64,000 nt of DNA from Fomitopsis serialis (Eukaryota > Basidiomycota > Agaricomycetes > Polyporales > Fomitopsidaceae). How positions within the stretch are numbered: position 1 is the stretch's first letter; the number at the start of each line of letters is the position of its first letter. Positions 20,087-43,454 of the stretch are shown in pieces. Under the pieces are notes generated by a model. That model ran no database searches. It was not told the origin of the DNA and saw only the letters and a list, made by a program, of their open reading frames with translations. Made by a program: the position numbers and the translations under genes. The stretch covers positions 1-64,000 of the forward strand of contig NW_025955073.1 in NCBI RefSeq assembly GCF_022376445.1. The letters run 5' to 3'.

Positions 20087-20998
20087 CCGAAATGTCCCGC
20101 GTTCAGTGAGTCGCCACGATCTCTTCCTTGAGGTTTCGTTACTCAAATATTGCATTGTGCCGCTGCTCTGTGCTTAGACGTGACAACCTCAACCTCAACT
20201 ATTCCCGTTATTCCTACTGCGATACCTAATTCCCGGATCCTCATAACTCTGAACTGTGTGCGTATTGCACCTCTGATAGTCTATTCGTCCTGGCCTTGCG
20301 ATACCCGCTACTTCTATGCGGACGCGTTGTTAAACCGTGTCCCCAAATGTCACTTACGATCTCAGACTGCCACTCTGGTATTCTAAATGATGTTGACGAC
20401 TTGGTACCATGTATACGTGTACGATATATAGTCCGTGGTCACTTCATGAGTCCTATCTCTCCGAAAGCCTGCGCGATGTGGTTCTGATCACACTTTGTTG
20501 TCTGGAAAGATGGCGGAGCTAGAAGCTCAACGCCAATTAGATAAGCAAATTCATACCATCAGCATCTGCGCAAGTGCATCCAAACTCCTCCTGGCCTCTT
20601 CGTACTACGATCACAACCCCTTTTCAGCACTCTATTTCGGACGTAGCGCCGGACTTGGGCATATACGGTAGCCCGTAGCTGCCCAGCAGCGGTGCGTTCG
20701 ATCAAGACGTCCAATGCTCGATAACTAATGGCAACCCAAACACAGTTCACAGTCGACTCGTTGCCAATCACGTCGAAGCGACTGCACTGCTCTAGCCAGC
20801 CACTGTGGGCTCCTTTGGCATCCTTACATTCTCACTTCAGGACCATCGGTAAGTATGTCAGATCGTCCATCTCTAATCGTTACATGGCTCATCTGAAATA
20901 TAGGCCTCCAGCTTTGATAAAGCCAGCCTCCAGCTACGCCGTAACTCAACCGACTCTTCCGTGTACAACCACTGCAATCAAGCTGTCGATCTCGAATC
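20087..20998. other. intergenic before APH-like copy A
   Basis: No gene is visible; only short overlapping open frames occur. Confidence 0.45.
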
Positions 20999-22348
20999 AT
21001 GCCCGGATCTTCGAATGACCTCGCTTCTCTGATTGAGGACGCCGATCACGACAAGCCCGTAGTCCTAGCACTCTCTGAAGAGGCACTCAATGAGGCATTT
21101 AGACCGGGATACAAACCCCTCTGTCATGTCGAAGTGTGCAAACTCGCCGACATCGCGCGTTCGGCACTGCGGCTACCCCCCTCCGTCCCCCCAACTGAGG
21201 TCCGCATCCTCAATGCTGGTTCCTTCAACAAGGTGTTCATCGTCCGTTTCAACTCAATCGCTACAGTCGCACGGGTTCCATTTGACGTACCGGCCGCGAG
21301 GGACCCCATCCGACTCAGGTCGCAGATTGCGACGTTGGACTTCTTGAAGACTCACAAGCCGACTATACCACTACCCAGAGTGCTAGCTGCTGTTGCCGAT
21401 AGCGACAACCCGTCGCGCGCACCGTACGTCGTTTCGGAATTCTGCCGAGGATCGCCTCTCACGATTCAAGAGTGGTACGTGGACATGTCGGATGCGAGTC
21501 GCGACGCCGCGATTGAGCTCCTCGCTGACAACTGGGTCAAGATCGTGACGCCAATCTCGTTCCAGTCAATGGGAAGCATTGTCCGCGACCCTGCGCGACC
21601 GTCCGGCTTCTGAGTCATGCCCATGATCTCGCAGTTCCCGGGGCAGGCAACCCCGTTGCTCGATCCGTCTGTGGCAATGCTCGACGGACACAAGAGCCTC
21701 GGTGATTACTGGACCCTCACGATGGAAGGGCATCGCCGTCAGATGGTCGACTTCTGACCCGACAACGATCACTCTGTCGTTGGCCTGGACCTCCGTTACG
21801 AGAAGTACACTCTAGGGCATCTTTGGCAATGCTACGAGGCCGTCCTGGAACTTGTGCACATCGCCGCGTCTCTAGATCCGCTGGCGGACGCGCCAGCAAT
21901 GGCACTCATGCACGCAGATTATTCCTTCTGGAAGAACATACTCTTCTCTGCGGATCGTACACGCATAGAAGGCATCATCGATTGGGACGATGCTGTCGTC
22001 GTTCCCCGAGATCTTGTCGCCGTATACCCCTACGAGTTGACGGATCAGGCTGGCGTATGGCGCACTGATCCGCCAGACCTAGTTGCTATCCCGCCGGGTA
22101 CGCTGTTCGAAGATGAGGGTCTGTGGGAAACCGCGATCCAGGAAACACAGCAGAGGAGGACGTTCAGAGAAGTTGTGCGGAAGCAGGATCCTCAGCTGGC
22201 GGAGCTATACACAGATCGTCGGGCGAGGTTTGGGAGGCGAGTACATCTTCTGGTCAGTCAAGGATTGGACACTTGGCTATACATCAAAGACTGGATATTA
22301 GGTGAAGGTCTGGAGGAGGCGCGTGCATTGCGTGATGATGAAAGGTGA
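20999..22348 (+). pseudogene. APH-like kinase, copy A (two nonsense codons)
   Basis: This is a full-length relative of copies B and E, homologous from SEEALNEAF to the C-terminal LGEGLEEARAL. The frame is uniform but interrupted by TGA at 21611-21613 (SGF*VMPMIPQF, where copy E has SGFRVIPMIPQF) and by a second TGA near 21756 (MVDF*PDND). The catalytic-loop region is preserved: MALMHADYSFWKNILFSADR (H-x-D...N) and IDWDDAVVVPRDL, the metal-binding aspartates of the aminoglycoside phosphotransferase/choline-kinase fold. Unlike B to E, its 5' end has no GT donor after the MPGSS start and reads straight through. Both stops need only a change to TGA, so inactivation looks recent. Substrate unknown. 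Confidence 0.82.
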
Positions 22349-22971
22349 CCACCGGCATACTGCTTCGCTCGCCGCAGGGGCATTGAATATGAGAACTGTC
22401 TGAAAATAGCCAGGTAACCGAATCACCGCGCCTTTGAGGCGGTTAGGAAGAAGAGCTGTGAAACTCTTCATGTACGTGATGGTCTGATTACTATTACATT
22501 GTTACCTTCGATGCGCGTATGGTCCGGAGTATACAGAGGTGCCTCTCTCTAAGTTTCGCATATTTGCCACAGCGGACTAAGCACGAGCCTGGACACCATG
22601 GCCCGCAAAGTCGCCGGCTTCGAATTTATCTTTCGGCCGCAGGCAGCCGTACCATCGTTGACGTTCTTCCCTGAAGCTTGGAGCTTGAAGCTTGAAGAGT
22701 TGTGCCACCGCGCATATACGTACCTTGCGGGAAGCGAACATTCAGTCAAGCAAACCATTGGCTGCCTTCAGAATGGCAGTAATACAACAATCCACCAGTA
22801 TATTACATGGACACACTGTACTAGAACATCATAAATCCTGTCGACAACCGAATACGTGTCAAAGCTCGTGACCGTGGACTGCCTCCAGCGCAGAGCGAAG
22901 ATTCGTCAGAGACAAGTATGCTTTAGTGTGATGAGATGCGACGTACCATCTATCCTACTCGTGGCCTGAGG
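22349..22971. other. intergenic, 3' flanks of copies A and B
   Basis: There is no gene. The stretch at about 22570-22960 is homologous to the 3' flank of copy C (about 27080-27725), so the duplication that made B and C included some 400 bp of downstream DNA. The point at about 22903 corresponds to the empty site of the MITE at 27407. Confidence 0.6.
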
Positions 22972-24392
22972 TCAAACCCTGCGCTCAGCCAATGCACGCG
23001 CCTCATCCAAACCCTCGCCCAAGACCCACTTCTGTTTCCACAACCAAGTGCACCAGCCATACATGACCAGGTAGTGAACCCGTCTCCTGAGCCTCGCACG
23101 ACGGTCGGTGTACAGAGCCGCAAGCTGTGGATCCTGCCTCTGTACCAACTCCCTGAACCTCCGTCTCTGCTGTGTCTCCTGGATCGCAGTGTTCCACAGA
23201 CCCGTGTCTTCATACAGTGTTCCGGGCGGGATAGCAAACACGTCGTCCGGGTCAGAGCGCCACGAAGCCTCGTGTGTCAACTCCTCGGGATAGACAGCCG
23301 CGAGGTCTCGTGGGACGACGACGGCGTCGTCCCAATCGACTATCCCTTCGATGCGCGTGCGGTCCGCCGAGAAGAGAACATTACGCCAGCAAGCGTAATC
23401 AGCGTGCATCAGAGCCATGATCGGCTCGCGCCCGTGCGGGGTTGCCAGCGGATCCAAGGAGGCCGCGATAGCTGCGATAGTCTGCACGGCTTTAGCACAT
23501 TGCCAGAGTTCACCTAGCGAGTGCTCGTTAAAAAGGCCATCCTTGACGATGACCGAGAGGTCATTGTTCGGGTAGCGAGAAGTGATGTTACGGAACTGCT
23601 CTTGAATTTTGGAGGCCCAAAAATCCGCTAAATTCATCGGCCCCGTGCGCCGCTCGAACGATGGTTCGAGGACCTCAGTATAACGGTCTGGAAATTGTGG
23701 AATCATAGGTATGATGCGAAAGCCACGCCGAGAACCACTAGCGTCTATGCGCCACATGCCATTCACGACACCGGAAGGGTCATGGAGTATGCTTCCGATT
23801 GCGTTGAACGGAACCGGCGCCGTGATCTTGACCCAGAGGTCGGCAAGGAGATCGACGACGGCGTCACGACTTGCGCTCGATAGATTGTCGCACCACTCGA
23901 TATAGGTGATAGGAGTTCCCGTGAGGAATTGGGAAATGACATAAGGCGCACCCGCAGAGTTCGTGCTGCTGTTAGTAACAGCAGCAGCGATGACCCTCGG
24001 CACCGCGATATGCGGTCTGTACAGTGCCAAGAAGTCCAGTGTGGCGACCTGAGATTTCAGTCGAATGGGGTCACGCGCCGCAGGTACGTTGAACGGGACT
24101 CGTGCGACGACTGCTGTTTGCCCAAAACGAACGAGGAAGACTTTGTTGAAGTGCCCAACGTCGTGTATAAGCACTTCACTGGGAGCGACGGTGGAACGAA
24201 GCTGAAGGGCATCGCGGGCCGCAGTCACGAGCTGTCTCACGTCAACGCCGCAGAGGACCTTGTATTTCGGTGCGAAGACCTCATTCAAGGCTTCCTCAGA
24301 GAGTATCCGAGGTGTGATGACTGATAGGCAATAATCATCAGCATTATTAGCCGTCTGCCAATGGGTAGACCGTCACCTGGTGACCCGAGCAT
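22972..24392 (-). CDS. APH-like kinase, copy B (intact)
   Basis: Two exons on the minus strand (24377-24392 and 22972-24320, intron GTGACG...ATCAG) give 454 aa. The tiny first exon encodes MLGSP plus one base; the same short exon/intron structure is seen in C, D and E, which supports the model. The protein belongs to the APH/protein-kinase-like superfamily expanded in Agaricomycetes: N lobe with FNKVFLVRFGQTAVVARVPF (nucleotide-binding strands and lysine-equivalent region), central LLADLWVKITAPV, catalytic loop MALMHADYACWRNVLFSADR and metal site IVDWDDAVVVPRDL. The C-terminal ETQQRRRFRELVQRQDPQL segment is shared by all five copies. It is predicted to be cytosolic, with no signal peptide. 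The substrate cannot be inferred; members are often annotated only as phosphotransferase-like. Confidence 0.85.
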
Positions 24393-26075
24393 CGATGGCG
24401 GTAGTCGTCGGTTGCAGCGTGTAACGGGTGACGGGTAGGCACTTGCTTGAGGAGCTGACCAAAGGGAATGGGTACGTTCATATCACAACTTGATTATAAC
24501 TGGCGAGCGACGGCGCCGTGGGATGTGAGTCAGCGTGACGCGAGTGTGATGAGCGCCTGAGTCACTTTAAGGAGATCAAAAAGTGGTCACGGTCACATAG
24601 CCTGACATGCGAAACTTACCCGGCTTATAGCTAGCCCAAAAGCCTGTGCGAGGAGGGTATGTTTGTGAGTCTCAGTGTGTACTTCGAGATGAATGCCGTG
24701 CTGATGCCTTGTAGTTTACGCGTCTGGCACGGTACTTTAAGTGCAAGCTTATGTCCACTGGCAGCAGCGCCACATGGACTCACGGTCGTTCAACGTTCCA
24801 TAGTATAGAAGGCTAGCACGGAGTCGACCAGCAATACCGCACAAGAATCTGTCCATCTGCCACGCTCCCCGTTGGTCTCGCAATAAGTGAGTCTCGCTTC
24901 TGATGCGACGCTGTCGGAGATATCATTATGGGGCTTCTGTTGTTCTCGGACCGCAGATCCTGACATATACGGTGGCATCGCACCGCTCACTCAGGCTGAA
25001 TGCGATGTCCGGAGACTATGTTGGCCGCAAACGTCAGAAATGACTGGAGCAAGGAGCGCACTATACTGCGTTGAGGAATGCCATGAGAGCCTTAGCCTGC
25101 CATGTGCTTGCGAAGTCTGATGCGGATAGCCGTTTCAGTGATGCTTGTATGCACCTTGTTCTGTGGCATCGGACTTCCGGATAACAACAAGTGTACAGTT
25201 CCGTGGGGAGACCCGGACCATACCGTTGGATTTCGCGGCTTGAGGATTCCTCGTGAATAGAACCGGAACAGGAACCATAAATTCATTGCTCGCCGTAGCC
25301 CATACGTGGACGGGCTTTCCACCAGGTTACTTTGTTGCTCCTCAGAGACGTTGCCTTGATATCGCGAATTGACTCGCTCAGTCTGCATGCTACGGCAGGC
25401 AATTTGCCCATACATCACAGCACTCGCACAAATTCAAGATGTTCACGCATCATGAGGCCGTGGACCTGGTAATTGCACCGAGGTCTTCTAGGCTATGCAG
25501 ATGAAAACGGTACGTCCGCGCGTTGTGATTCTAGACCAACTTCTGAGCGCGCTGGTCCTAGCATTCCTAGGAGCTTCGGCGTGACTCAGTATACCAGGGC
25601 AACATACATGTGCATGTCCAGAATACGCACACAGGAGATGAGGTTCTAACACCTCGTGTATTGCTGGAATCGTGCCGTTCAGTCATATCACACATATTTG
25701 GCGATTTTGCACCGGTGTAAGTTCAGATGCATGCACTCGATTTGGAAACATTTGCCTAACATCGACAAGACAGACCAGGGAATCTGAGAAGAGTACCATC
25801 TCGGACGCGATCACGGCGCAAGGTGCAGGATGCACATTACGATGACTGTGTCTCCAAAAGAGGTCGTGTTGCTCGTGAACCGATATTGTGCCTCTCCGGA
25901 AACGGAACGCATGAGAAGATCTGCTCGGACCATAGTCAGTTCTCATTCGAGGGCGGCAAAGCTTAGCGCATAAAATGGCTCGAAGGGGACTCGAAGTGAG
26001 CAGCATCCTCCCCCAGAGTTCAAGTTGACCAGTGCTCCCTACGCATCTCAACCTCCTACGCCGATATATATCCCA
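24393..26075. other. 1.7-kb stretch without a supported gene
   Basis: Only short frames occur. A minus frame at 25092-25418 (108 codons) and another at 25683-26051 (122 codons) are the longest; neither resembles a known family. Confidence 0.4.
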
Positions 26076-26429
26076 ATGGTAAGTTCACAGGTACACGGTT
26101 GGTCCTGTGATACGACAGACCGACGGTGGATTACTATTCTCTAGGAAACCATCAAGGAAGATCCGAAAGAGTGGCTGAATGTAGTCATTAACGATCCAAA
26201 GAAATCACCCGGCTACCCTACCCTGGCCGTAGGTGCCTGGACGAATATCCACGGTCTCGGCACTTCAACGCACAATCCCCCGCTGCGCGTTCAGATCATG
26301 CGCACGTCTCAGGGCGATTACAGATTCCGACTCCTTGAAAAGAACAGTCAGAGGATCGTTGCCGGTCCTCTTGTATCGAGCACAGGGGATGCCGACGAGG
26401 CTATAAAGGAGCTTCACAATTCCCTCTAA
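26076..26429 (+). CDS. small hypothetical protein, 95 aa, two exons
   Basis: A start codon at 26076-26078 is followed at once by a good intron (GTAAGT ... CTCTAG, 26079-26144). The frame from 26145 then stays open for 94 codons to TAA at 26427-26429. The product is soluble and charged (opening METIKEDPKEWLNVV, with the middle segment AVGAWTNIHGLGTS) and composed like a folded protein. There is no signal peptide or membrane segment. The frame is the only long plus-strand frame in a 3-kb gene desert. I do not recognise the family. The start codon split from the rest by an intron is unusual but allowed; an alternative is that this is the last exon of a longer decayed gene. Confidence 0.4.
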
Positions 26430-27406
26430 ACCACCAGCGCGATGCTTCAGGTATTCGGTGAGCAGGTTCAAGTCGTGTCGTAATCATGCATGCCGTCTGA
26501 CCATGTTGATAATCTGTCTTTAGACCTGCCTGTGTGCGTTGACAATGGCTGGAGTTCAGACGATGAATAACGTTCGGTGTCCCTTGACTTACTGTAACAT
26601 ACAGATTATGGCTCAGACGGATGTTTGATGATCTACGACAGACTGTAACTACCCCTTGCACAATTATTTTGGAAACACAGATCGTCCTCAGACCCCGGCG
26701 TAGCATTGGTCGATGCAGTACAGCACGCACATTAGCCCATTAATTTCTGACCCTTGCAGCTAGTGTAGTCTCCGGGCATCTGAGTTAGCTGTGCCATGCC
26801 ACTGCCAGCGTACTACTGATGTATCAGATTCCGCTACTTACCCGGATACCGCCGCCGACCTGAACTTGCCAGTGACTCACTTATTGCGAGGCACGGCGGG
26901 AAGAGGCCTAATATACTGGCCTATGATATTGGATATTTATTGACATAAATGTTGAACGTTGAACGTTGGACGTTGACTATTTGAATCTTGGGTGCGTATG
27001 TTCCCGTCTTTTTGCTTCAGAATGGAATGCAAACAGTATTTATGTGATGTCGTGGTTGTCGTTGAACGGCGCAACTAGGCTTCGCTCGCCGCCGACCGCG
27101 GTGCAAAAGGTCGTCCGGCCGGCCTCGAACTTGCATATGGGTCGCGGGCAACCGTGCCATTGTTGCGCCCTGAAGAGTTGACACGTCCGAGTCGCGCACA
27201 TATTTGATGGCAAGTGTGCACTTAGCCGAGTCAACCGTGGGCTGGATGGAACAACACAGCGGTGACAAATCAATTCGTAGTGTCCTACGTGGACACATCG
27301 TAGAACATGATACGCGCTCTCGGTAGCGTTTACCAGCTCGGTAGAACGCATGATGTATGGGTTTCTTGTACGCTCGAAGAGTCAAGACTGCTTGCTGTGC
27401 AGAAAG
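26430..27406. other. intergenic with duplicated flank sequence
   Basis: No gene is supported. At about 26955 there are short imperfect copies of a GAACGTTG unit. 26980-27030 matches the 3' flank of the GH31 gene (17757-17806) at about 38 of 50 positions by eye. From about 27080 the sequence is homologous to the flank of copy B (22570 onward). Confidence 0.5.
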
Positions 27407-27676
27407 TACTGTAGCGAACCCTACAACCCGGATGTCACGCGTCACAAGCCCGCCGCCCGCCGCGGCGAGGATGTCATGTTACTCGTCACACCCGACCCCG
27501 CCGCCGGCGCCAACACTGTCGCTAGGCGCTAGGAGCGGCGCCTGCGGCGGGCACAGCGACAAGACCGCCATCCGGGGGGCGCATCACACGTCACACGCGT
27601 CCCCGCCGCTGCGCCGGATCGTGTACAGCCTGTCACACGTCACACCCCCATCCGGGTTGTGGGGTTCGCTACAGTA
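27407..27676. mobile_element. MITE-like element with 28-bp terminal inverted repeats and TA target duplication
   Basis: The left end TACTGTAGCGAACCC continues to GGATG at 27434. The reverse complement of the right end (27649-27676) matches it with one mismatch in 28 bases (T/C at the sixteenth position). The outermost TA on each side fits a TA target-site duplication, as in Tc1/mariner-type insertions, leaving a GC-rich 266-bp body with repeated GTCACAC/GTGTGAC motifs and no coding capacity. The homologous flank of copy B (about 22890-22910) lacks it and continues directly with GTCAGAGAC, giving a paralogous empty site. It is non-autonomous; no transposase is seen in the window. Confidence 0.82.
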
Positions 27677-27801
27677 GTCAGAGACCAGTGTGCTTCAACA
27701 CGGATATCTGTGACGTACCATCCGTATTAGTAGTCCTTGTGATTAGGTGAAGCTCCGCGTTTACCCAATGCATGGGCCTCATCCGAACCCTCGCCCAAGA
27801 C

Positions 27802-29168
27802 CTACTTTCGTTTCCACAGCCAGGCGCACCAGCCTTCGGTGACTAGATAATGAACACGCCTCCTGAGCCTCGCACGACGGTCGGTGTACAGTGCCGCAAG
27901 CTGCAGATCTTGTCTCTGTACTGCCTCCCTGAACCTCCGCCTCTGCTGTGTCTCCTGGATCGCAGTTTTCCACAAACCTGTGTTTTCATACAGCGTTCCG
28001 GGCGGGATGACAAAGACGTCGTCTGGGTCAGAGCGCCACTTGGCCTGGTGGGTTAACTCTTCGGGATAGACAGCCGCGAGGTCTCGTGGGACGACGACGG
28101 CGTCGTCCCAATCGACTATCCCTTCAATACGCGTGCGGTCCGCCGAGAAGAGAACATTACGCCAGCAAGCATAATCAGTGTGCACCAAAGCCAGAATCGG
28201 CTCGCGCCCATGCGAGGTCGACAGCGGATCCAGGGAGGCTGCGATGGCTGCGATAGTCTGCACGGCTTTGGCACATTGCCAAAGTTCACCTAGCGAGCAC
28301 GTGTTTCGAAGGCCATCCTGTACGATGACCGAGAGGTCATCGTTCGGATAGTGAGAAGTGATGTCGCGAAACTGCTCTTGAATTTTGTTGGCCCAATAGT
28401 CCGCCAAGCTCCCCGGCCCAGTGCGGTGCTCGAACGATGGTTCGAGGACCTCAGTATGGCGGGTCGGAAGTTGAGGGATCGTGGGTATCACACGAAAGCC
28501 ATGCCGAGAACCACTGGAGTCCATCCGCCACATGCCGTCTACGACGCAGGATGGGTCATGGAGGATGCTTCCGATTGCGTTGAACGGAACCGGCGCCGTG
28601 ATCTTGACCCAGAGGTCGGCAAGGAGATCGACGACGGCGTCACGATCTGCGCTCTATAGCTTGTCGCACCATTCAATATAGGTGATAGGAGTTCCCGGGA
28701 GGAATTGGGAAATGATATAAGGCGCGCCGGCAGGATTCGTGTTGCTGACGGCAGCAGCGAGGACCCTCGGCACTGGTATATGCGGCCTATACAGCGCCAA
28801 GAAGTCTAGTGTGGCGACCTGAGATTTCAGTCGAATGGGGTCACGCGATGCAGGCACGTTGAATGGGACTCGCGCGACGACGGCTGTCTGCCCCGGAAAA
28901 CGGACGAGGAAGACTTTGTTGAAGTTCCCAGTGTCGTGTATACGCACTTCACTAGGATCGACGGTCGAGTGAAGCTGAAGGGCGTTGCGCGCAGCATTCA
29001 CGAGCTGGCTCGCATCAACGTTGCAGAGGATCATGTATTTCGGCGAGTAAGCCTCGTTCAGGGCTTCCTCAGAGTGTGTCTGAGGCGTGGTGACTGGGAA
29101 GTAATGAACATGAGTAAAGTCACTGACCGTCTGTCATAATGGAGATGATTACCTGGTGGCTCGAGCAT
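27802..29168 (-). pseudogene. APH-like kinase, copy C (two nonsense codons)
   Basis: Exon 1 (29153-29168) encodes MLEPP plus one base, the intron is GTAATC...CCCAG (29094-29152), and exon 2 begins VTTPQTHSEEALNEAY. The frame is broken by TAG after the segment IEWCDKL (copy B reads CDNLSSASRDAV, so TCG became TAG). A second TAG at 27802-27804 replaces the tryptophan of KQKWVLGEG, removing the last 20 or so residues. Catalytic residues (LVHTDYACWRNVLF, VDWDDAVVVPRDL) are intact. The central 937 bp are almost identical, in inverted orientation, to copy D, whereas the 3' third is closer to copy B. Confidence 0.85.
28061..28997 (-). repeat. left arm of 937-bp near-perfect inverted repeat (copy C)
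   Basis: Read base by base against the reverse complement of 30155-31091, the arm shows one difference (position 28254 against 30898). Just outside the arm the two copies differ at 4 of 34 bases on one side and about 9 of 40 on the other. The abrupt edges indicate gene conversion rather than simple recent duplication. Confidence 0.9.
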
Positions 29169-29966
29169 TCAGTCTTGACCGATGAAGTTACACGAAGTCA
29201 GTGTACTTAGTAGCGTGTAATGGGCGGGTACCTGCTTGAGGAGCGGAACGAGCGGATTGTATGTGTCAAAACCGCCGGCTGCGTCGCGCAGCGGGTTATG
29301 TTTGAACTCAGGCCAGCGTACCAATTTGGTACGACATACATGATATACAACGGCTGCTTGAGACACCACGGGTCCTTCAAGTTGAGACAGTCACGGTAGA
29401 CTTCAGTGGCCTGGAAAAAAAGCTAAAATTTACTCACAACTGTTATAGACCTGCCGAGACCATGCTTGAGTGCTGGCCGCTGCACAGTAAGTGTTATGTC
29501 GAGGAGGAGGGAAAACCGTGTTTCACGCGTTTCCAGTCATTACGCGGTTTGCCGCATTCGGCGTCACAGTGACCATAAAAGTCACATTTCCATCACAGAT
29601 CTAGATTTTGATACGCGTGAACACCCCATCATTCACTGGCACGGTGCCACAACCGGAGTCTTTTTTGTATTCTCCGTGTTTTAGGCCCGTACTGTAGGTA
29701 CATGTGGGCACAATAGTAAGGGACGTCAGACGCTAACAGACCGTGCTGCGGCATGGGCCCCCAGATCCCGAGGAACCCCATCTCCCTGCGACCTCACCAC
29801 CCTCCCAGCCCCTGCCACAACTGGAGTCACTGCCTGACTTTGGGCTGACTCGCGGGTCATTCACTTACCTATATCGCATCCAATCCCTTTGTTCCACTCC
29901 TCAAACAAGTGCCTATCCGTTGTACGCTACAACTAATGAGTCTACCGCCATCGGTCAGGACTACTA
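29169..29966. other. spacer between inverted copies C and D
   Basis: No gene is seen. It presumably holds the two divergent promoters of copies C and D. A 72-codon plus-strand frame at 29466-29684 has no recognisable features. Confidence 0.5.
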
Positions 29967-31404
29967 ATGCAAACACCAGAGCCGCCAGGTGGGTTAGTAG
30001 TCTACCATCACTGTAGACGGACAACACTGCTCATCATTGCATGCTCACTGCCTCCCAGATATCACACCTCAGACACACTCTGAGGAAGCCCTGAATGAGG
30101 CCTACTCACCGAAACACAAGGTCCTCTGCAATGTTGACGCGAGCCAGCTCGTGGATGCTGCGCGCAACGCCCTTCAGCTTCACTCGACCGTCGATCCTAG
30201 TGAAGTGCGTATACACGACACTGGGAACTTCAACAAAGTCTTCCTCGTCCGTTTTCCGGGGCAGACAGCCGTCGTCGCGCGAGTCCCATTCAACGTGCCT
30301 GCATCGCGTGACCCCATTCGACTGAAATCTCAGGTCGCCACACTAGACTTCTTGGCGCTGTATAGGCCGCATATACCAGTGCCGAGGGTCCTCGCTGCTG
30401 CCGTCAGCAACACGAATCCTGCCGGCGCGCCTTATATCATTTCCCAATTCCTCCCGGGAACTCCTATCACCTATATTGAATGGTGCGACAAGCTATAGAG
30501 CGCAGATCGTGACGCCGTCGTCGATCTCCTTGCCGACCTCTGGGTCAAGATCACGGCGCCGGTTCCGTTCAACGCAATCGGAAGCATCCTCCATGACCCA
30601 TCCTGCGTCGTAGACGGCATGTGGCGGATGGACTCCAGTGGTTCTCGGCATGGCTTTCGTGTGATACCCACGATCCCTCAACTTCCGACCCGCCATACTG
30701 AGGTCCTCGAACCATCGTTCGAGCACCGCACTGGGCCGGGGAGCTTGGCGGACTATTGGGCCAACAAAATTCAAGAGCAGTTTCGCGACATCACTTCTCA
30801 CTATCCGAACGATGACCTCTCGGTCATCGTACAGGATGGCCTTCGAAACACGTGCTCGCTAGGTGAACTTTGGCAATGTGCCAAAGCCGTGCAGACTGTC
30901 GCAGCCATCGCAGCCTCCCTGGATCCGCTGTCGACCTCGCATGGGCGCGAGCCGATTCTGGCTTTGGTGCACACTGATTATGCTTGCTGGCGTAATGTTC
31001 TCTTCTCGGCGGACCGCACGCGTATTGAAGGGATAGTCGATTGGGACGACGCCGTCGTCGTCCCACGAGACCTCGCGGCTGTCTATCCCGAGGAGTTGAC
31101 CCACGAGGCTGCGTGGCGCCCTGACCCGGACGACGTGTTTGCTATCCCGCCCGGAACACTGTATGAAGACAGACTTATGTGGGAGACTGCAATCCAGGAG
31201 ACGCAGCAGCGGCGGAGGTTCAGGGAGGTGGTACAGAGACAAGACCCAGAGCTTGCGGCGTTGTACACCGACAGTCGTGCGAGGCTCAGGAGACGGATTC
31301 ATTACCTGGTCATACACGGCTGGTACACTTGGTTGTCGTATGACGACTGGATACTGGGTGAGGGATTGATGGAGGCGAATGCATTGGCTGAACGCAATGC
31401 TTGA
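29967..31404 (+). pseudogene. APH-like kinase, copy D (one nonsense codon)
   Basis: Exon 1 (29967-29988) encodes MQTPEPP plus one base, the intron is GTGGGT...CCCAG (29989-30058), and exon 2 runs from 30059 to the stop at 31404. The frame carries the same TAG after IEWCDKL (30496-30498) as copy C. Otherwise the product would be 455 positions long with all APH landmarks, including LVHTDYACWRNVLF and VDWDDAVVVPRDL. The final 100 codons differ from C (EAAWRPDPDDVFAIPP, YTWLSYDDWILGEG) and resemble B and E, so D is a mosaic. Divergently oriented to C. Confidence 0.85.
30155..31091 (+). repeat. right arm of 937-bp near-perfect inverted repeat (copy D)
   Basis: Partner of 28061-28997; the coordinates of paired bases sum to 59152. 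The arms are separated by 1157 bp, so the locus could form a long hairpin, and transcripts crossing both arms would be double-stranded. Confidence 0.9.
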
Positions 31405-31633
31405 ATACATAGCGGGCCACGAGGGCTACGGATGATGCGCCACATGCCGTTAACTTCGACCTTCCCAGAACGAACTGCACAGCCTGCGCGCATCTGATCC
31501 ACTGATATCTCGAATTGTGGGAAACAGACTTGGCCTTGGTCATATTTAAAGAAGCGCTGCTAGCCCTCGCTAGGACTGTGATTTCCCAAGTACCTGATGA
31601 CTGTGTCCTACAAACTTCGCAGCTGATTACCGT

Positions 31634-33031
31634 ATGCCTGGATCATTTGGTGATTAGTTGAGTCCTCTTGTCACGTCGACAGATGCTTAAGTTACCCCTC
31701 TACCAGTTTCTGTGCCATCTGAGGCGGTGCTCAACGAGTCCTACATCCCGGGATACGGCAAACTCTGCCATGTCGATGTCTCTGGCCTTGTCGAAATGAC
31801 GCGCGCCGCTCTCCAGCTATACTCATCCACCGCACCCAGCGAGGTCCGTATCCTTAAAACTGGATCTTTCAACAAGGTGTTCTTCATACAATTCGGCACC
31901 ATCGCTGTCGTCGCACGCGTCCCTTTCGACGTGCCGGCAGCACGCGATCCCATCCGTCTTGGATCGCAAATCGCGACGTTGGACTTCCTCAGGATTCACA
32001 AGCCGACTATACCCATACCCAGAGTTCTCGCTGCTGCGCCCGACAACCAGAATCTGTCGCGCGCGCCGTTTATCATCTCCGAGTTCTGTAGAGGGACGCC
32101 TCTCACGATTCAAGAGTGGTACGACGACATGTCGAATGCGAGCCGGGACAGGGCCATCGACCTCCTCGCCGACGCGTGGGTGAAGATCACTGCGCCAGTC
32201 TCTCTCAATACGATTGGAAGCATCGTTCAGAATGCGTCGAACCTTCCGCATGGTATGCGGCCCAGCAGAGACGACGCGCAGTCGTCCGGATTCCGTGTCA
32301 TACCCATGATTCCGCAATTCCCTGACGAATGGACTGGAGTGCTTGACCCGTCCACGGAGAGGCACTCTGGTCCTAGGAGCATTGCCGAACATTGGTCCCC
32401 CCTGCTGGAAGCGCAGCGCCACCAAATCGGCATGACGTTCGCAGGCAAAGACCCATCTTTCGTTGTATGGGACGACCGAGTCACTAAGCACACATTGGAG
32501 AAGCTCTGGCAATGCTTTCAGGCCATGCAGGAACTCACATGCATCGCTGCATCCCTGGATCCACTGGCACGTACACCGGCGATGGCATTAATGCACTCTG
32601 ACTACTCGTGTTGGAAGAACATACTCTTCTCAGCGGACCGTAGGAGCATAGAGGGCATCGTCGATTGGGACGATGCCGTTGTCCTTCCTCGCGATCTTAC
32701 GGCCATATACCCCGACGAGATGACGGATCAGGCTGGCGAATGGCGGTCGGATCCGCCAGACGTATTTTCTATCCCACCGGGTACGCTATACGAAGACGAG
32801 GGTTCGTGGGAGACGGCGATTCAGGAAACACAGCAGAGGCGAACGTTCAGAGAGGCTGTGGGGAGGCGGGATCCTCAGCTGGAGGCGCTATACACGGATC
32901 GACGGGCGAAGCTCCGGAGAAGAGTGCATTATCTTGTTCGTTATGGGTGGTACACTTGGTTATCGAACGACCGCTGGGTATTGAGCGAGGGTCTGGAGGA
33001 AGCGCGTGCGCTAGCTAGAGGTAGAAAGTGA
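31634..33031 (+). CDS. APH-like kinase, copy E (intact)
   Basis: Exon 1 (31634-31649, MPGSF plus one base), intron GTGATT...ACCAG (31650-31706) and exon 2 (31707-33031) give 446 aa. It has the same fold landmarks as copy B: FNKVFFIQFGTIAVVARVPF, LLADAWVKITAPVSL, catalytic loop MALMHSDYSCWKNILFSADR and VDWDDAVVLPRDL. E is closest to copy A (both read TIQEWYVDMS or TIQEWYDDMS and begin MPGS), whereas B, C and D form the other subgroup. Cytosolic kinase-like protein of unknown substrate. Confidence 0.87.
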
Positions 33032-33239
33032 ACATATCCCCTTAGCTTCACGAGCATGTGCATCTATGATAGACATCTCTGTTCTTACGCACACCCTATG
33101 AAGCTCGAGCTCTGGGCACTTACCTACCAAATACTGTTTCCAATCATAATTGCTGTCGTGCGATTCCAGACATATCGAGGACCACAAAGCCATATGCGCC
33201 GTAATGCAATGACTCTGCGATGCATTCGGCATTGTGCAT

Positions 33240-33470
33240 GATCATGAGTTCTTTGCCGACTTCGAGAATGTATTTATGGCCATCCCGTTCACGTTCGCAA
33301 TTGCCGTCGCGTCCCTCCACGTTCGTGACAACCGAGGAGCTTGCCTGAGATGATCGAAGCTTGATACTGGGACGCAGTAACTTGGGTCGTGGTACTCACA
33401 TTCTCATGCCCCACCATGATTGCGTCGAACGATAGGAGTGAATCAAGTCAATCAAATGAAACGCGGCAGA
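33240..33470. repeat. direct repeat unit 1 (exon-like module)
   Basis: About 230 bp similar to 33510-33750 in the same orientation. Read on the minus strand, both units contain a frame with a shared pattern: here NVEGRDGNCERERDGHKYIL, in the other copy KLEGCDGNCGCERKDHKYIV. In unit 2 the frame follows an intron-like GTGAGT...TTTGTAG. The family is not recognised. Confidence 0.6.
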
Positions 33471-33509
33471 AGGTGAACAGGAAAGCTTACTGGTCATGCT
33501 CTTGTGTGA

Positions 33510-33750
33510 TGCGCGGTTCTGGTCCGACGCGATGCTTCGACAATGTATTTGTGGTCTTTCCGTTCACATCCGCAGTTGCCGTCGCATCCTTCCAAGTTTC
33601 GCGACGACCGAGGAGCTTGACTGAGAGACCATCGATATCCGATGTCTACAAAAATACGCCAATTCAGTCCCTAGTACTCACATTCGTATGCCCCAACGTG
33701 CACTGCGTCGAACGATGAGAAGCTGTCAGGGAGTCAAGCAAATGGGACAC
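33510..33750. repeat. direct repeat unit 2 (exon-like module)
   Basis: Partner of unit 1, with many substitutions but clearly alignable, including the shared TCACATTC(T/G)(C/T)ATGCCCCA block and the GCGTCGAACGAT block. The divergence suggests an old tandem duplication, possibly of an exon. Confidence 0.6.
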
Positions 33751-34147
33751 GGTATCAAGCATCATACCCCAGATTGCATCCGACAGTGTCATACAAGCTC
33801 GCATTGAAGTCCTTCGCCGCTGCACGTTTAGAAGCAGCATGGACGTGGCTCAGAGCACGAGTGCATCCCAGGGCTGCACGAGTGAACGGAGCTGTCAGAA
33901 ACGAAGCTGTCAGATGCGCAGGAAGACATGCAACAGACTTCTATCCCGATTGCGATGAGTGGTGTAGCAAGGCTGCGAAGGATGACGTCGCCAAGGCTTG
34001 GGAGAGGAATCTACAGTACCGCTTGGGATCGATGGGGAACTTTGCTGTCGTACAAGTACTACAACCGCTGGGTTCTGAGTGACGGCCTGGGGACTGGCTA
34101 AAGATGGGAAGCAAACAGACTGGCTATGTAGGGCTCTTCTTACTTAC

Positions 34148-34600
34148 CTGTGGCGTCTCCGAGACCTTGGGCTTTTCGACGCTCGACACCACGAATGTGT
34201 AGGTGTTTTTGCTCTGTCGAGATCATCGTGTAAGATCTAATGCGACATAATCGATGACCGAGTCATCTATACGCACGAACTCAATACGTGATACTTGCGT
34301 TCCCATGGATCGAGCGTGACGCGGGCGCGTGAAGAACGACTGCGCATGCATATTTCAGTCGAATGAATGAGACACGAAGCTACGAACCAGGTGGCACTGC
34401 CTTCGACTTCGTCGTGGTCCTTCGGCACCACACTTCGTCGATGGCAAGCGCGCGCGCAGGGGAGGGCGGATTTGGATCGTGCCTTGGGTCTGACGGACGT
34501 AGGGGGTGCAGCGACGATGATCCAGGAGTGATCAAGGCGTACACGCGCTGCGCTCCAGTGTTCTCTTGACAGTTTACGGAGGATGTGGGAATGCTGCACA
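34148..34600 (-). CDS. unrecognised spliced coding fragment
   Basis: On the minus strand three blocks can be joined by plausible GT-AG introns. The first runs from about RVYALITPGSSSLHPL to TTTKSKAVPP. The second is SRSSRARVTLDPWERKYHVL. The third is KNTYTFVVSSVEKPKVSE, ending at a GTAAGT donor at 34147. The text looks protein-like, but I know no family for it and could not place a start or the remaining exons. It may belong with the repeated modules at 33.2-33.75 kb, which lie downstream on the same strand. The opposite strand also has a 102-codon frame (33774-34082) downstream of these blocks. Treat this as a hint of a gene, not a model. Confidence 0.28.
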
Positions 34601-35175
34601 CGACTATGGACTGGAGGTTGGCGTGCGAGAGAAGCAAGATACTAGAACCAACAAACCTGCTCGCTCGGAAGAGGGTTATTATGCGCGAATGAGTGAGGTC
34701 AGCGTTCTATGATTAGTTCATACTGAGCTAGCTCGATGAATGAATATTGAGGACGCCGGCAACCGCAAGAGACGCGTCGACCACTGAGAATGGGCGGAGG
34801 TAGCCGTGGAATCAAAACTCAAGGCGTCCGCGCACTCGGGGCACTGGATTGCGCGCATGTCCGGGGCCACACAGGCAATAATGCCATGATGAACAAGCCG
34901 ACAAAACTCGCGGAAAAGGCGAGAGGAGGTCGCGCTCTCGTACGTGTATTGCTGCGGCTGAATAGGACTGTTGTGCGCTGCCTGGCGAGGGGACGGGGCG
35001 CAAGGGGAGCCCTTGGCCCAGTGGACTGAGCCTCGAACGCGTCGCGGAGGTAAACACCATGCTTTATAGCATTTCAAACTCCGCAGTGGTGGCTTTTTTC
35101 GGTGCCGTCTTTATCCAAGTCCGGCCCTCCTGGACACTCCTGCCTCCCCGCTACTCCTCTCTCCCCGCACCAGCC

Positions 35176-36664
35176 ATGTCGTCCAACATCAACATCAGCC
35201 AGGTCGACCCCACGGCGCCGACACCGCAAAACACGCCCCTCAGCCACGCCCCCATCGCGCAGGGTCTCTCGCGGCCGACCGTCCCAGACATCAGCGAGGA
35301 CAATGAGCCAGAGGAGGAGGAGGAGGAGTCGGGCATCCAGCAGGCCATGCAGGGCCTCGTCAGCGCGAAGCTCGCCACCCTCATCGGAAAGAGCTCCGGC
35401 TACGTCGAGAGCCTCCCAGAGAACGTCCGGAAGAGCGTTGAGGCGCTCAAGGGCGTCCAGGTGAGGCAGGTCGAGCTGCAGAACCAGTACAAGCGCGAAT
35501 GTCTCGAGCTCGAGAAAAAGGTGCGCGAAAATCAGCCGAGCCTATTCCGATAGGGGTCGCTGACAGGCGGGCAGTACCACGAGCTGCAAAAACCGCTGTT
35601 CGAGCGTCGCTTCAAGATCCTCACTGGGGCCGAGGAGGCGACCATGGCAGAGGTCGAGGCCGGCGAGAAGGAGTGGGCCAAGGAGGACGAGGAGTATCGA
35701 CCTCTCGGCACCGAGGCGACCTACCCGTCCGTCGCCATCCCCGAGTTCTGGCTCACCGCGCTGCGCAACCATGTTGGCCTGTCGGAGATCATCACAGATC
35801 GCGACGGCGACGCCCTCAAGCACCTCGTCGACATTCGCCTCGAGTACCTCCCCACCACGGACACCAAGCCCGGCTTCAAGCTCATCTTCGTCTTCACGCC
35901 GAATGAGTTCTTCGAGAACTCAGTGCTCGAGAAGACGTATATGTACCAGGAGGAGGTTGGCTACACGGGCGATTTCATGTACGATCATGCGATTGGCACG
36001 GAAATCAAGTGGAAGGAGGACAAGGACCTGACGAAGGAGTTCGAGATCAAGAAGCAGAGGAACAAGAGTGCGTAGCAGGCCATTTCGCGCCGGCTCATGC
36101 GTATATGCTGACGATCACCGATCAGACACGAACCGGACGCGTTTAGTGCGGAAGGCAAAGCCAACGGACTCGTTTTTCAACTTCTTCGCGCCCCCGCAGC
36201 CACCGAGCGACGACGACGACGACGTTGATGGGGAGGAGCTCGAGGAGCTCGAGGAAAAATTGGAGATGGACTACCAGATCGGCGAGGATATCAAGGAGAA
36301 GGTTAGTTTGCGTTCGATCGCTCTTGGCCCGCTCATATCAAGGTCGCTAATCGCCTCGATTGCTCTAGATCATTCCCCGTGCGATTGACTACTTCACCGG
36401 CCGCGCGCTTGAGTTTGAGGACTTCGAGGACGACGATGATTTTGAGGATATCGATGATGAGGATGACGACGAGGACCACTTCGAGGATGAGGTACGCTAT
36501 TCTCTGCCCACCACCGCCGGGAAAGTCGCCAGACTGATTCGAAGGACTGAACACAGGACTCGGAGTCGGACGATGCGTCGCCCGCACAACGGCGGCGCAT
36601 GCCCGCGAAGGGCGGCGCGGGCGCGAACCAGAACGTGAATCCGGAGGAGTGTAAGCAGCAGTGA
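35176..36664 (+). CDS. NAP1: nucleosome assembly protein NAP1
   Basis: Five exons (35176-35520, 35575-36067, 36126-36301, 36369-36491, 36557-36664) give 414 aa. NAP1 is a histone H2A-H2B chaperone that shuttles between cytosol and nucleus. The landmarks are a long N-terminal dimerisation helix (LECLELEKKYHELQKPLFERR across the first intron), the NAP core with IPEFWLTALRNH and FFENSVLEKTY, KKQRNKNTNRTRLVRK followed by TDSFFNFFAPP, and a highly acidic C-terminal tail (DDDDFEDIDDEDDDEDHFEDE). The last four residues are CKQQ, matching the C-terminal prenylation box known for NAP1 proteins. The ATG at 35176 (MSSNINISQVD) was preferred over an upstream in-frame start that would add a hydrophobic, non-conserved leader. 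Confidence 0.96.
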
Positions 36665-37428
36665 TCGCGCGTGTCCTTCGCTGCTTGCCCGTGGAGTGTA
36701 GCATGGTGGAGTCTGGCTGTGTCCCCCTCGTCATTGTCGGTTGGAAGGTCCTGGTATGCAATCTGGTAGGTCATCAATCGTGTTGTTGTTCAATCATACG
36801 TACGTACGCCCGGGAAAACGTAATGTTGTCATGCTTGTATTCATTATTCACGCTCTCCCCATCCCACCCCGTGCTCTCGTACTGTCTGCGTCTTGTGCCT
36901 TGATATCTCTCGACGAAAACAAATGATGTTCAGGTGCCTCGTGTGTCTTCTCATTCTCATGGTCGTGGATCTGCCCGGCGGAGAGAAGGATGGCGGGAAC
37001 GATTTTGACAACCTCAGCTGCGGATCGAGTGTTTCGGGGGTGAAGCGAGCAGATTCAGAAGTTAGAGGTCTCCGCGTCTGAATTTGATTGAAGGATCAAA
37101 CGTTCAGGACCCTGAGGCCGGGGACACGGGGACTTGAATAATTAATGGAAAACACGCCGGAGTGGACATGTATGAGTGGTTGTGGACAAGTGTGCTACAC
37201 CGTCGACATGTATGCTGCCCTGTGGTGACTTCAATCAGACTTCAACGCTTCACAGCAATGCAGAGCTGTGGAGAAAAGAAAGGGCGCGTTGCCATCGGGG
37301 GCAGCCGAGGTGTGACTGGACGCGTGGGTCACGTCACGCGTTGATACCGCAATCGCCGCGGCCGCGGGACGCGCCTCGACTCGAAGCAGCCTCCCGTAGG
37401 CGCTTGTCCCCTTCCGTCCATATTCGAC
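36665..37428. other. intergenic between NAP1 and the zinc-finger gene
   Basis: No gene is visible; it holds the NAP1 3' flank and the probable promoter of the next gene. Confidence 0.5.
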
Positions 37429-40400
37429 ATGGCCTACTCCTCCCTTGCAAACTGGGACGGCAGCCAGGCCTCCTCCTCCCAACACCCATCTCCGTCCAGA
37501 CATCCGCCCACCGAGACACAGCACCTCTCACCCTCGAGACCTCCAGCACAAAGCGGTGCCGGTGCCGCGAACTCGAACGCAATTTCTGCGGAGCCGTTGC
37601 GGCCTGACGATCGTACCGGTCTGCCTGCGTCGTCCGACATGCCACCGCCGCCTGTAGCGCAGAAGAGCCGTCGCCCACCCGATTCCACCAGCTCGGAGAG
37701 CGCCGTCAACAACATGCTCTTTCTACCAGAGTCGGATTCGGAGCCGGAGCCAGTCCAGGCGGGTCCTGCGGTGCGTGCTGGGATGCTTCTTCCGTTCCAC
37801 GGTGCCCGTGGCAGCTGACTCGTCCTTGCGTCTCTTTTGCTATCAGCCTCTGCAGGAGGTGGATGTGCGAGTGGCTGCGGCCAAGGAGGCGGAGCACTCT
37901 GTGCGGGCGACGGTGGGTGGCTTCCTTTGTCCTGCGCCCGGCGGGATTCTCATCTGTCCGCCCGCGGTCGTAGATGAATCCAAAACCGCCGACTCCGCCT
38001 GCGTCGCAGTCTCCCGACTTGTTGCCTGATATCCAAGTCCCTCCCGAGTCCATTACGTTCACGTTTCTTCCTCAGGGCCCGCTTCTCGTCGAAGCTGGGC
38101 ACATGCAGCTATCCTTTCAAGATGATTGGCCTGCCGAAGCTGCTGGTACGGCATCGGTGCGTATGCCTGTGCGTAATTTGCATCTGATAGCTTATGCACT
38201 GCGACCTCAGCGAGACACCGCATCGTCAAAGGCGACCGCATCGACATTGCCGCCTACCCCACCGTTGACAGGCTCTCTTGACGCCTCCTCTGACGCGCTT
38301 CTAGAACCCATGGAGAGCGCTGCTGCCACGCGTGCCTCAAGCACAACCCAAGGTCTTGAAAGTGTTCCTCCACAAGGTACGGACGTCGAGATGATTGATC
38401 TCACCGTCGATGCGCCAGAGGAGCAGCATCATGACATGCGTTCGGACTCCGGTTCGAGCAGATCGCGTCGTCGAGCCATCCCGCGGTCAACTGCGGCGGA
38501 GATGCTCACCGTACTCGCTACGCCGCAGGCGGCATCGTCCTCTAACACCTTTCCTCCGCGGCTAGGAGAACCGGGACCATCATCATTCTCGAGCTTCAAG
38601 CAGCTGGCGTCCAGGGGCAGCAGCACCAGCAGCCACGGCATCAAGCGGACGTTCTTCGTACGTGGCCTGGACGCTCTGGCTATGTGCGTATGCTGACGTG
38701 TCCGTTCCCCGTAGGAGTCACCCACCCCTGGTCCTTCAGATCGTGACTCGATGGGCCCCCCACCTAGGAAACAACAGAAGAACATGCATACATACGTGGC
38801 TGCGGCGGGGCCGTCCACGTCGTGCCGCTCTGTCTCACCTCCACCCATCTCGTCTCACCCACCAGATCGTCTGCACCATGGCCGGACGGCGATTCGGCAA
38901 GAGTGTTTCGTCCTGGTACCTCGTCTACCGCCGGACGTCAAGCTCGATGACTATGTGCCAATGGACGTGTACCTAGATCAGCCGCCCAAGCGCAAGGCCA
39001 AACAGCGGGCAGAACAGAAGCTCAAGGATGTCGCGGCTTTTCATGCTGGCGAGTTCGTCGCGGATCCATCTTCGCCTGAGCCACAGAAGCGGGAGCGGGC
39101 GAAAAAGAAAGCCAAGGCAGTGTCTGCTCCTCGGGCCAGCGAGGTCCGTGCGACCCAGCCTCCACCGACGCCAGTGAAGCAGGCAGAACTGAGGCTCCAG
39201 GAAGTGGCTGCTCCTCGGGCCAGCGAGTCCCACGCGACCCAGGCTCCGCCGACACCAAGAAAGCGGGAAGAACCGAGGCCCATGGAACTGGCTGCTCCTC
39301 AGGGTTCCGAGTGGCGCGCGGTGTCGATGTCGCAACCGCGCGAACCACCGAGACCCGCCAGATCCCCATCGCTCCCCGCCACCCCGCCGCCTCCCGAACC
39401 CGAATTCTATCCCGAGTTCGCACCGCTGGACGCGAACACCACCATCGTGCCCGCAGACGGCTTCGCCCCGCTGGAGATCGCGGACATCAGCGTCGAGGAC
39501 CCCCCGTTGATCACGCCTCTGCTGCTCTGCACCGCGCTCCGGCACGTTTGTCCTGAGCGGGACACTGAGTGGTGGCGTGAAAGGGGAAAGGAGGAGGAGG
39601 AGAACATCAGGCGGTGGAGGGAGCAGGTGGAGAGGGAGAAGCGGCAATTGATGGGTCCGTTTGCGCCTGGTCCTTCTCAGGCACCGTCTGCGTCTGCGAA
39701 GGGTAAAGGGAAGGGGAAGGGGAAAACGCAAGTGGAGAAGGGAAAGCAGGAGCTGATGGGTGCGTCAGCGCCTGGTCCCTCCAACGCGCCGTCTGTGTCT
39801 GCCAAGGCGAAGGCGAAGGCGAAGGGAAAGGCGAGGGCGAAAGTGAAGGCAGAGTCTTCGACGTCTAGCGCTTCGCCGGCGCGCAAGAAACGCGAGGCGC
39901 ATGTCCGGGGTCGGTCTACGGTGAATGCGGAGGCAAGCTCGAGTAGGGATATTCCTCCTCCTCCTCCTCCTCCTCCTCCTCCTCCTCCTCCTCCTCCTCC
40001 TCCTCCTCCTCCTCCACCACCACCACCACCACCACCGCCTCCGCCGTTCTACGCGCCGATGTATGACTTGCAGCAGATGCAAGCGCCGTATGAGCCACCG
40101 GCCCCACCCCCGCCTCCGCCCTTGCCGGTCCAGGCGGCAGCCCCGGTGCTTCACGGTAGTCTCTCTGACCCGGTTTTTCTGAGCACGTCGGCGTCCATGC
40201 ATGTGCAGATCCAGCCCCGCCAGTCGATCGTGTCGCCGGTACATTTGCCGACCACCCAGCGGGAGCAAGTGATGGCGCAAGAGATGTTCCGGATCTCGTT
40301 TGAGGAACCTGCGCAGGGAAGCAGGGGGATGGAATCGTCTTTCGGGGAGCCGCAGTCTGAGGATGCGGCCATGGCCATGGGTTTTCGAGAACCTGAGCAT

Positions 40401-42331: not shown

Positions 42332-43034
42332 ATGACCTCCCCGCCAGCCGCCAGCAGCTCACTCTCCCCGCAGGACGCTCTGGGTCTGCGCACCGCCCTC
42401 GCCGCAGCCGGCAAGTCCTACTCCGAGGGCGGCGTGCCGATTGGCGCCGCGCTCGTGCTCCCGCACCCGCCAGGTGAGCCAGACGGCGCGCCCGTCGTGC
42501 TCGGCCAGGGTCACAACGCCCGCGTGCAGCTCGACTCGCCGATCCTCCATGGCGAGACCGCGGCGCTGCTGGATGCGGGGCGGCTGAAGGCAGAGGTCTA
42601 CCGGCAGGCAACGATGGTACGTCCACATTCCGGTCTTGTTCCCTCTTGCACAAATCGGTCGTGCTGTGGTAACTTACGCGGAACCTCGTCTCGTCGCGCG
42701 ACATTGCAGTACACGACGCTCTCGCCCTGCTCGATGTGCTCAGGCGCGATCCTGCTCTACAAGATTCCCCGGCTCGTGATCGGCGAGCACCGCAACTTTG
42801 TCGGCGACGAGGACCTCCTCCGGTCGCGCGGCGTCGACGTCGTCGTGCTCGACGATCCGGAGTGCGTCGACCTCATGGAGAGGTTTATCAAGGAGAAGCC
42901 GGAGGTACGTCGGTCTACTATACGGACGGGTGCTGTGGCGTCGTGGCGGACACGACGAGTCGGATTGTGGACTTACACCCCCACTTCAGGAGTGGTATGA
43001 AGACATCGGGGAGGTCCCACCAAAACACCAATAG
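42332..43034 (+). CDS. FCY1: cytosine deaminase (CDA fold)
   Basis: Three exons (42332-42616, 42710-42904, 42990-43034) give 174 aa. The enzyme converts cytosine to uracil in pyrimidine salvage. The zinc-binding motifs are complete: HGETAAL (His ligand and catalytic Glu) and PCSMCSGA (two Cys ligands), the fungal cytosine deaminase type. The YSEGGVPIGAALV segment precedes them and the IPRLVIGEHRNFVGDEDLL segment follows. The C terminus PEEWYEDIGEVPPKHQ, split by the last intron, is close to the yeast Fcy1 ending (WYEDIGE). Length compares with about 158 aa in yeast; the extra residues are N-terminal. It converges on the dehalogenase gene 420 bp downstream. Confidence 0.94.
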
Positions 43035-43454
43035 GGAGACGCAGTCGTGGCTCGTGATCATCTTAATGGAGAAGCTGCGACTCAGTTGTCCAAGTTGCGG
43101 CTCACGTCGCACCTCAAGACCCAGCCCGGAGATGCCGCGATCGAGAATGAGGCGGACGTACGCGTACATCAACGTACGAAGGAAGACACGATGGAAGAGC
43201 AGAACATAAGCGATGTGGAATACGCAGAACCCGAAGCAAAGTCTGGCGATTGGGAGTTCATGACATGTACAGACTCTGCGTGCTTCGAGCCCTCTTCATT
43301 CATGCAGATCAGCCGCGACCGCCAACTCGTGAGCCATATCAGGGCTCAGCCCAGATGCCCCAAACTAAATTGGCGCATGGACTCGACTCGCTCACTTCAG
43401 GTAATCTTACACTTGCCCTGCTTCTGCTCTTCAATCATCCTCTTTACTCACTGT

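Follow-up and report, generated by a model that had tools for sequence, protein, structure and literature searches.

Two neighboring kinase homologues of Fomitopsis (Neoantrodia) serialis lie in opposite orientation, share a stretch of almost identical sequence and carry the same premature stop codon within it, raising the question of how the same lesion came to sit in both copies and which of the two was overwritten by the other. The window (the whole stretch of DNA that was analyzed, 64,000 nucleotides) comprises positions 1-64,000 of contig NW_025955073.1 (C17) in assembly GCF_022376445.1, for which 66.19 Mb in 806 contigs were analyzed. The accessible portion of a published comparison places the Neoantrodia serialis Sig1Antser10 genome (66.7 Mb, 893 scaffolds) as the largest among 12 genomes and gives sizes of 28.4-43.9 Mb for eight others (PMC11678574).

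Within the window, five related kinase-homologue copies were found, of which A, D and E lie on the forward strand and B and C on the reverse strand (Table 1). The Pfam scan covered copies B and E together with the post-stop part of D; bit scores against the APH profile (PF01636) were 35.2 for E, 29.1 for B and 24.0 for that part of D at a cut-off of 23.2, and from this profile match these three are predicted to belong to the APH phosphotransferase family. The alignment of the kinase copies shows an HxDxxxxN...DWD-like stretch, which we take to be the kinase catalytic motif. The 441 residues of copy B are contained unaltered in database record P0004, and database protein P0001 has 99% identity to copy E, both records being from Fomitopsis serialis. 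Rhodofomes roseus and Fomitopsis betulina also possess related proteins. Further members of the kinase family, some with stops, lie outside the window at C46:369728-372973, C451:5783-6891 and C756:21158-22298. The spacers of the array also hold repeats. A MITE-like element (~270 bp, its terminal inverted repeats ~30 bp long) occupies 27406-27676 in the B-C spacer and recurs near full-length on ten other contigs (75-100% identity), and a dispersed repeat of 156 bp at 29661-29816 in the C-D spacer is found full-length on eight other contigs (87-97%) and partially on six more.

A second contig, C46, is collinear with C17 in the pieces compared, from the first base of the window (C46:387680, 97% identity) to 63.5 kb (99%). 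For each of two 3-kb pieces of C17, exactly one other genome location was listed, on C46 with 99% identity, and we infer that C46 represents the other nuclear haplotype of the dikaryon. A fully diploid assembly is not supported, as the nine matches to the RNA polymerase second-subunit family fall at just three places, none of them represented on more than one contig; because the assembly is not diploid throughout, the haplotypes would be separated only in part, and the allelic status of C46 is accordingly an indirect assignment. The Prp8 PROCN family was of no use for the ploidy count, with 27 matches on eight contigs (C223, C103, C125, C804, C237, C169, C261 and C318), a number that exceeds the expectation for one single-copy gene split by introns. 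Should C46 be the product of a recent segmental duplication and not an allele, the argument from D and its C46 counterpart given below would not change. C46 carries counterparts of four of the copies (A2, B2, D2 and E2) and no separate C; the segment that includes copy C measures 5.5 kb in C17 vs. 0.64 kb in C46. An inverted pair is already present in C46 at the C/D place.

Table 1. Coordinates of the kinase copies, the shared tract and its stop codons in the window (codons are numbered in the homologous frame)
Feature	Position	Strand	Remark
Copy A, kinase homologue	21074-22333	+	Interrupted by two TGA stops (codons 180 and 228)
Copy B, open frame	22978-24300	-	TCG where C and D share a stop; Pfam APH PF01636
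Copy C plus ~3.4 kb of left-hand spacer	24344-29863		Only ~0.64 kb in C46 (411983-412625)
Copy C, kinase homologue	27760-29073	-	Two stops, TAG140 and TAG424; probable donor
Second TAG, copy C only	27802-27804	-	Codon 424; outside the tract
Shared tract in copy C	28061-28997	-	Counterpart of 30155-31091
Shared TAG in copy C	28654-28656	-	Codon 140
Spacer of the C/D inverted pair	29113-30039		Alignable parts oriented as in C46
Copy D, kinase homologue	30079-31392	+	Sole stop is the shared TAG at codon 140; probable recipient
Converted tract in copy D (probable)	30155-31091	+	1 mismatch vs. C in 937 bp
Shared TAG in copy D	30496-30498	+	Codon 140
Copy E, open frame, 439 codons	31712-33028	+	99% identical to C46 allele E2

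When the reverse complement of copy C is aligned to copy D, the 937 bp of 30155-31091 contain a single mismatch, at 30898, in agreement with the initial annotation of this DNA, which had described the two copies as identical over that length except for one base. The base of D at this site, a G, is private to D among the nine copies. C-D mismatches restart directly at 30154 on the left and at 31092 on the right, and differences amount to 17/115 on the inner side (30040-30154) and 70/313 on the outer side (31092-31404). The tract is thus one of near-identity between paralogues with sharp edges, both of which lie within alignable homologous sequence. The previously reported edge counts were exact on one side (4 of 34 bases, at 30121, 30132, 30138 and 30154) and close on the other, where eight of the "about 9 of 40" differences fall in 31092-31131 and the ninth lies beyond, at 31137. 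A GENECONV-like column-shuffling analysis was performed with 10,000 shuffles on the 403 columns that are polymorphic among the five copies B, B2, C, D and D2, and the C-D run of 145 identical polymorphic sites was matched in none of them. The same result (0/10,000) was obtained for B2-D2 (run of 70), D-D2 (run of 89) and C-D2 (run of 20), and four of the ten pairs are therefore mosaic by this test; the D-D2 run reflects orthology outside the tract.

The comparison of D with D2 reveals a switch in relationship at the right edge. To the right of the tract, only 1/313 positions distinguish D from D2 (312/313 match), followed by 0/66 in the 3' flank, whereas inside the tract, over 30726-31091, they differ at 75/366 and D differs from C at 1/366 (Fisher p = 6.7e-21 for the D-D2 contrast between inside and outside). 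Synonymous divergence between D and D2 likewise stands at a dS of 0.65 in 30726-31091 and of 0.00 to the right of the tract. Trees built on either side of the edge disagree in the same manner: in 30726-31091, C and D are grouped with support of 100/99 and the AU test rejects D+D2 (p = 0.0003), while in 31092-31392 it is D and D2 that are grouped (100/99) and a C+D clade that is rejected (AU p = 3.7e-7). Beyond the right edge D is an orthologue of D2, and within the tract it is paralogue-like. Because D is D2-like from 31092 outward and C-like in 30726-31091, D carries C sequence at a place where native D sequence would be expected, the latter having most likely been replaced.

The left side is less informative in this respect. 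In 30040-30154, left of the tract, differences number 17/115 between D and D2 and 1/115 between B2 and D2, and D-D2 divergence is 16-18% in the 5' flank. In 30060-30154, a D+D2 clade is rejected (AU p = 0.003), in part because D2 shares this stretch with B2, and C and D are grouped in the best tree with weak support (44/64). Since D2 differs from D here too and shares the stretch with B2, only the right edge is polarized by the orthologue. Further in, D2 differs from C/D at 16/445 positions in 30155-30599 and at 1/126 in 30600-30725, and clade tests were blocked by identical rows for all six named clades in the former segment and for four of six in the latter. With identical rows and a D2 close to C/D throughout 30155-30725, the orthologue contrast comes from 30726-31091 alone.

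The shared stretch of B2 and D2 is itself a tract. The inverted pair on C46 differs at 1/560 positions over 30040-30599 (D coordinates) and at 26/126 directly past the 30599/30600 end; over 30155-30599 this tract differs from the C-D tract at 16/445 positions, and the extents of the two are unlike. The B2/D2 tract is a second, independent conversion that lacks the stop, and the palindromic part of the array therefore converts repeatedly. Beyond the B2/D2 tract, the closeness of D2 to C in 30600-30725 points to an earlier exchange between the lineages of C and D. D2 is tentatively regarded as the source of the tract in B2. Additionally, the 3' flank of B2 matches that of B (88%, 641 columns) and not that of C, and its 5' flank matches that of C (80%, 322 columns) and not that of B, making B2, the minus-strand copy of C46, a B/C hybrid of the kind expected from recombination between the direct repeats B and C.

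The stop codon lies within the tract. As had been noted for this DNA, both C and D read TAG and B reads TCG at the shared site, which is codon 140 in C and D; the B2/D2 pair also reads TCG there, and the homologous frames of D2, B, B2, E and E2 are stop-free. In D, the TAG at codon 140 would cut the product short before the region that contains the catalytic motif, and a loss of kinase function is predicted. Copy A is broken in both contigs by different stops, namely TGA180 and TGA228 in the window and TAG304 in A2 (C46:408726-409985). Relaxed constraint was considered as proof that C died first and is unsupported. The C branch is longer in the 3' part (Tajima test of C vs. B with D2 as outgroup, 29 to 9, chi2 10.5; with E as outgroup, 22 to 11, chi2 3.7), and B-C divergence in that part has a dS of 0.52 and w of 0.16; because dS is raised alongside dN, the long branch of C is no sign of prolonged neutral decay.

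Combined, these results favor interlocus (non-allelic) gene conversion with C as template, in which D was overwritten and the TAG was carried along, a reading to which we assign a probability of roughly 0.86. They lend support to the central proposal of the initial annotation, i.e., that conversion between inverted paralogues spread an inactivating mutation, through the D-D2 contrast (1/313 vs. 75/366), the AU tests and the stop-free D2. The direction is a separate matter, because identity alone does not give it: the TAG could have arisen in D and been passed to C, with the 30726-31091 sequence of D2 coming from another source, and the TAG at codon 424 of C may be later. When the genome was searched with the 366 bases of D2, the next best of 11 matches reached 83% (B2), so that no donor for D2 is apparent. 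The 30726-31091 tree joins C/D to B (91/92) and leaves D2 outside (70/78), and the 31092-31392 tree places D/D2 outside the group of B, B2 and C (49/60), with weak to moderate support in both; D is thus the copy that moved, with the qualification that a B2+D2 clade in 30726-31091 is not rejected (p 0.21) and the outside place of D2 there is not firm. The single private base of D is derived. From the missing D2 donor, the placement of C/D with B and this derived base, the direction very probably ran from C to D, and the reverse is doubtful. On the donor side, a separate C allele is absent from C46, and C is grouped with B in the trees (weak to moderate support). A resemblance of the 3' third of C to B, which had been claimed earlier, fails as an argument for direction: it is absent overall (C-B 50/313, D-B 49/313) and present only in 31333-31382 (7/50 vs. 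17/50), with 36/241 vs. 28/241 differences before that segment and 7/22 vs. 4/22 after it.

The right edge might have had a different origin. Divergence between C17 and C46 per 250-base bin is 7-16% in 22250-24343 and 2-25% in 29864-30999, and identity is at least 99% in 18 of the 27 bins of 31250-38000; on the left, divergence climbs gradually, with 95.6-98.8% identity in six bins of 20750-22249. Similar humps between the contigs occur at 10000-11000 and 43000-43500 (9-12% divergence, in surroundings mostly at 0-3%). As the divergent block ends where the tract does, with divergence falling to 1/313 exactly at its right edge, conversion could have homogenized C and D while they lay on a divergent haplotype, and an ordinary allelic crossover near 31091 could later have attached this block to the common haplotype and so made the edge. 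This two-step history appears unlikely, since D-D2 dS in 30726-31091 resembles that between different paralogues (0.59 for C-D2 in the 3' part) and is roughly double the values for the positional alleles B and B2 (0.30 and 0.22, one for each of the two segments), and since the left edge would still require conversion, C and D being alignable paralogues there (17/115). It is similarly improbable, though conceivable, that the array interior as a whole (~22.25-31.09 kb) forms a haplotype block that has long persisted and strongly diverged, and that the nuclear haplotypes each rewrite their own inverted pair there by independent conversions, so that null and intact alleles arise and stay segregating, possibly by balancing selection. 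An error of assembly or polishing that wrote C sequence into D would be in keeping with an assembly fragmented in 806 contigs and an argument made from assembled sequence alone, and is very unlikely given that D and D2 are 20% apart in 30726-31091, presumably too distant for cross-mapped reads, and that the arms differ in spacer and flanks with one private base separating D from C. The near-identity over 937 bp and the close inverted spacing could also point to a single recent inverted duplication as the origin of the C-D palindrome, after which only the ends diverged, the outcome that the initial annotation had set against its own proposal. Examined with C46, that history is contradicted on the right side, where the 3' end of D is orthologous to D2 (1/313) and distant from C (70/313); both edges lie within alignable paralogous sequence and C46 has an inverted pair here already. 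The D-D2 orthology right of the tract and the edges in homologous sequence rule out a one-duplication origin unless C46 is misassembled, leaving it a minimal probability.

Under gene conversion from C to D, the following course is proposed. Copies C and D, in opposite orientation and ~0.9 kb apart, would have recombined, and homologous-recombination repair with C as template would have overwritten ~937 bp of D, probably in a single recent event and without crossing over. The alignable parts of the C-D spacer are in plus/plus orientation between C17 and C46; because they share orientation in both contigs, the spacer has not been inverted and the C-D conversion would have proceeded without a crossover. 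Through this repair, D would have received the premature TAG of C, turning a probably intact D into a null allele on this haplotype, and the other haplotype would retain the stop-free D2. More generally, the locus suggests that closely spaced inverted paralogues can be lost together by conversion and that the near-identity of duplicates is no proof of recent duplication. One assembly suffices for this reasoning, in that the stop-free orthologue D2 indicates which gene was probably overwritten and that the nonsense codon moved with the tract. With several strains of F. serialis, it would be possible to measure how often, and in which direction, a palindromic gene pair undergoes conversion.

Among the best matches of a literature search, no title concerned this F. 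serialis locus, and a search on kinase expansion returned no paper. Conversion between inverted neighbors and the spread of silencing mutations by conversion are already in print, as far as the excerpts of the sources reach (PMC3375281, PMC9731477, PMC3966223), and the C-D tract is a clean new case of a known mechanism. A close likeness in kind is to human GSTT2, where, according to the excerpted account, gene conversion spread a silencing mutation between inverted neighbors and endangered both duplicates (PMC3375281). The two share inverted adjacent copies and an inactivating mutation passed by conversion; GSTT2 involves a regulatory mutation in a 29 kb duplication with several individuals and great apes as evidence, whereas the F. 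serialis case is a nonsense codon in a kinase array known from two contigs of one assembly. In the human disease locus SBDS/SBDSP (Shwachman-Diamond syndrome), conversion likewise brings in mutations of an adjacent pseudogene, as the consulted section describes, with the difference that a functional gene and a pseudogene are involved there and APH-like array members here (PMC5299470). Conversion between neighboring copies is also described for adjacent inverted paralogues of Caenorhabditis, e.g., hsp16, in a study whose available part mentions that a pseudogene donor can conceivably bring mutational load; that system concerns another gene family and organism, and the same part contains no stop spread via an inverted pair (PMC3966223). 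Finally, the Saccharomyces flip/flop repeats are, in the portion of the report at hand, fungal inverted paralogues that were repeatedly homogenized by gene conversion, with repeats of 4.2 kb located 24 kb apart and an intervening region that inverts (PMC9731477); in F. serialis, by contrast, the tract is 0.9 kb, the spacer has kept its orientation, and one of the tracts carries a stop.
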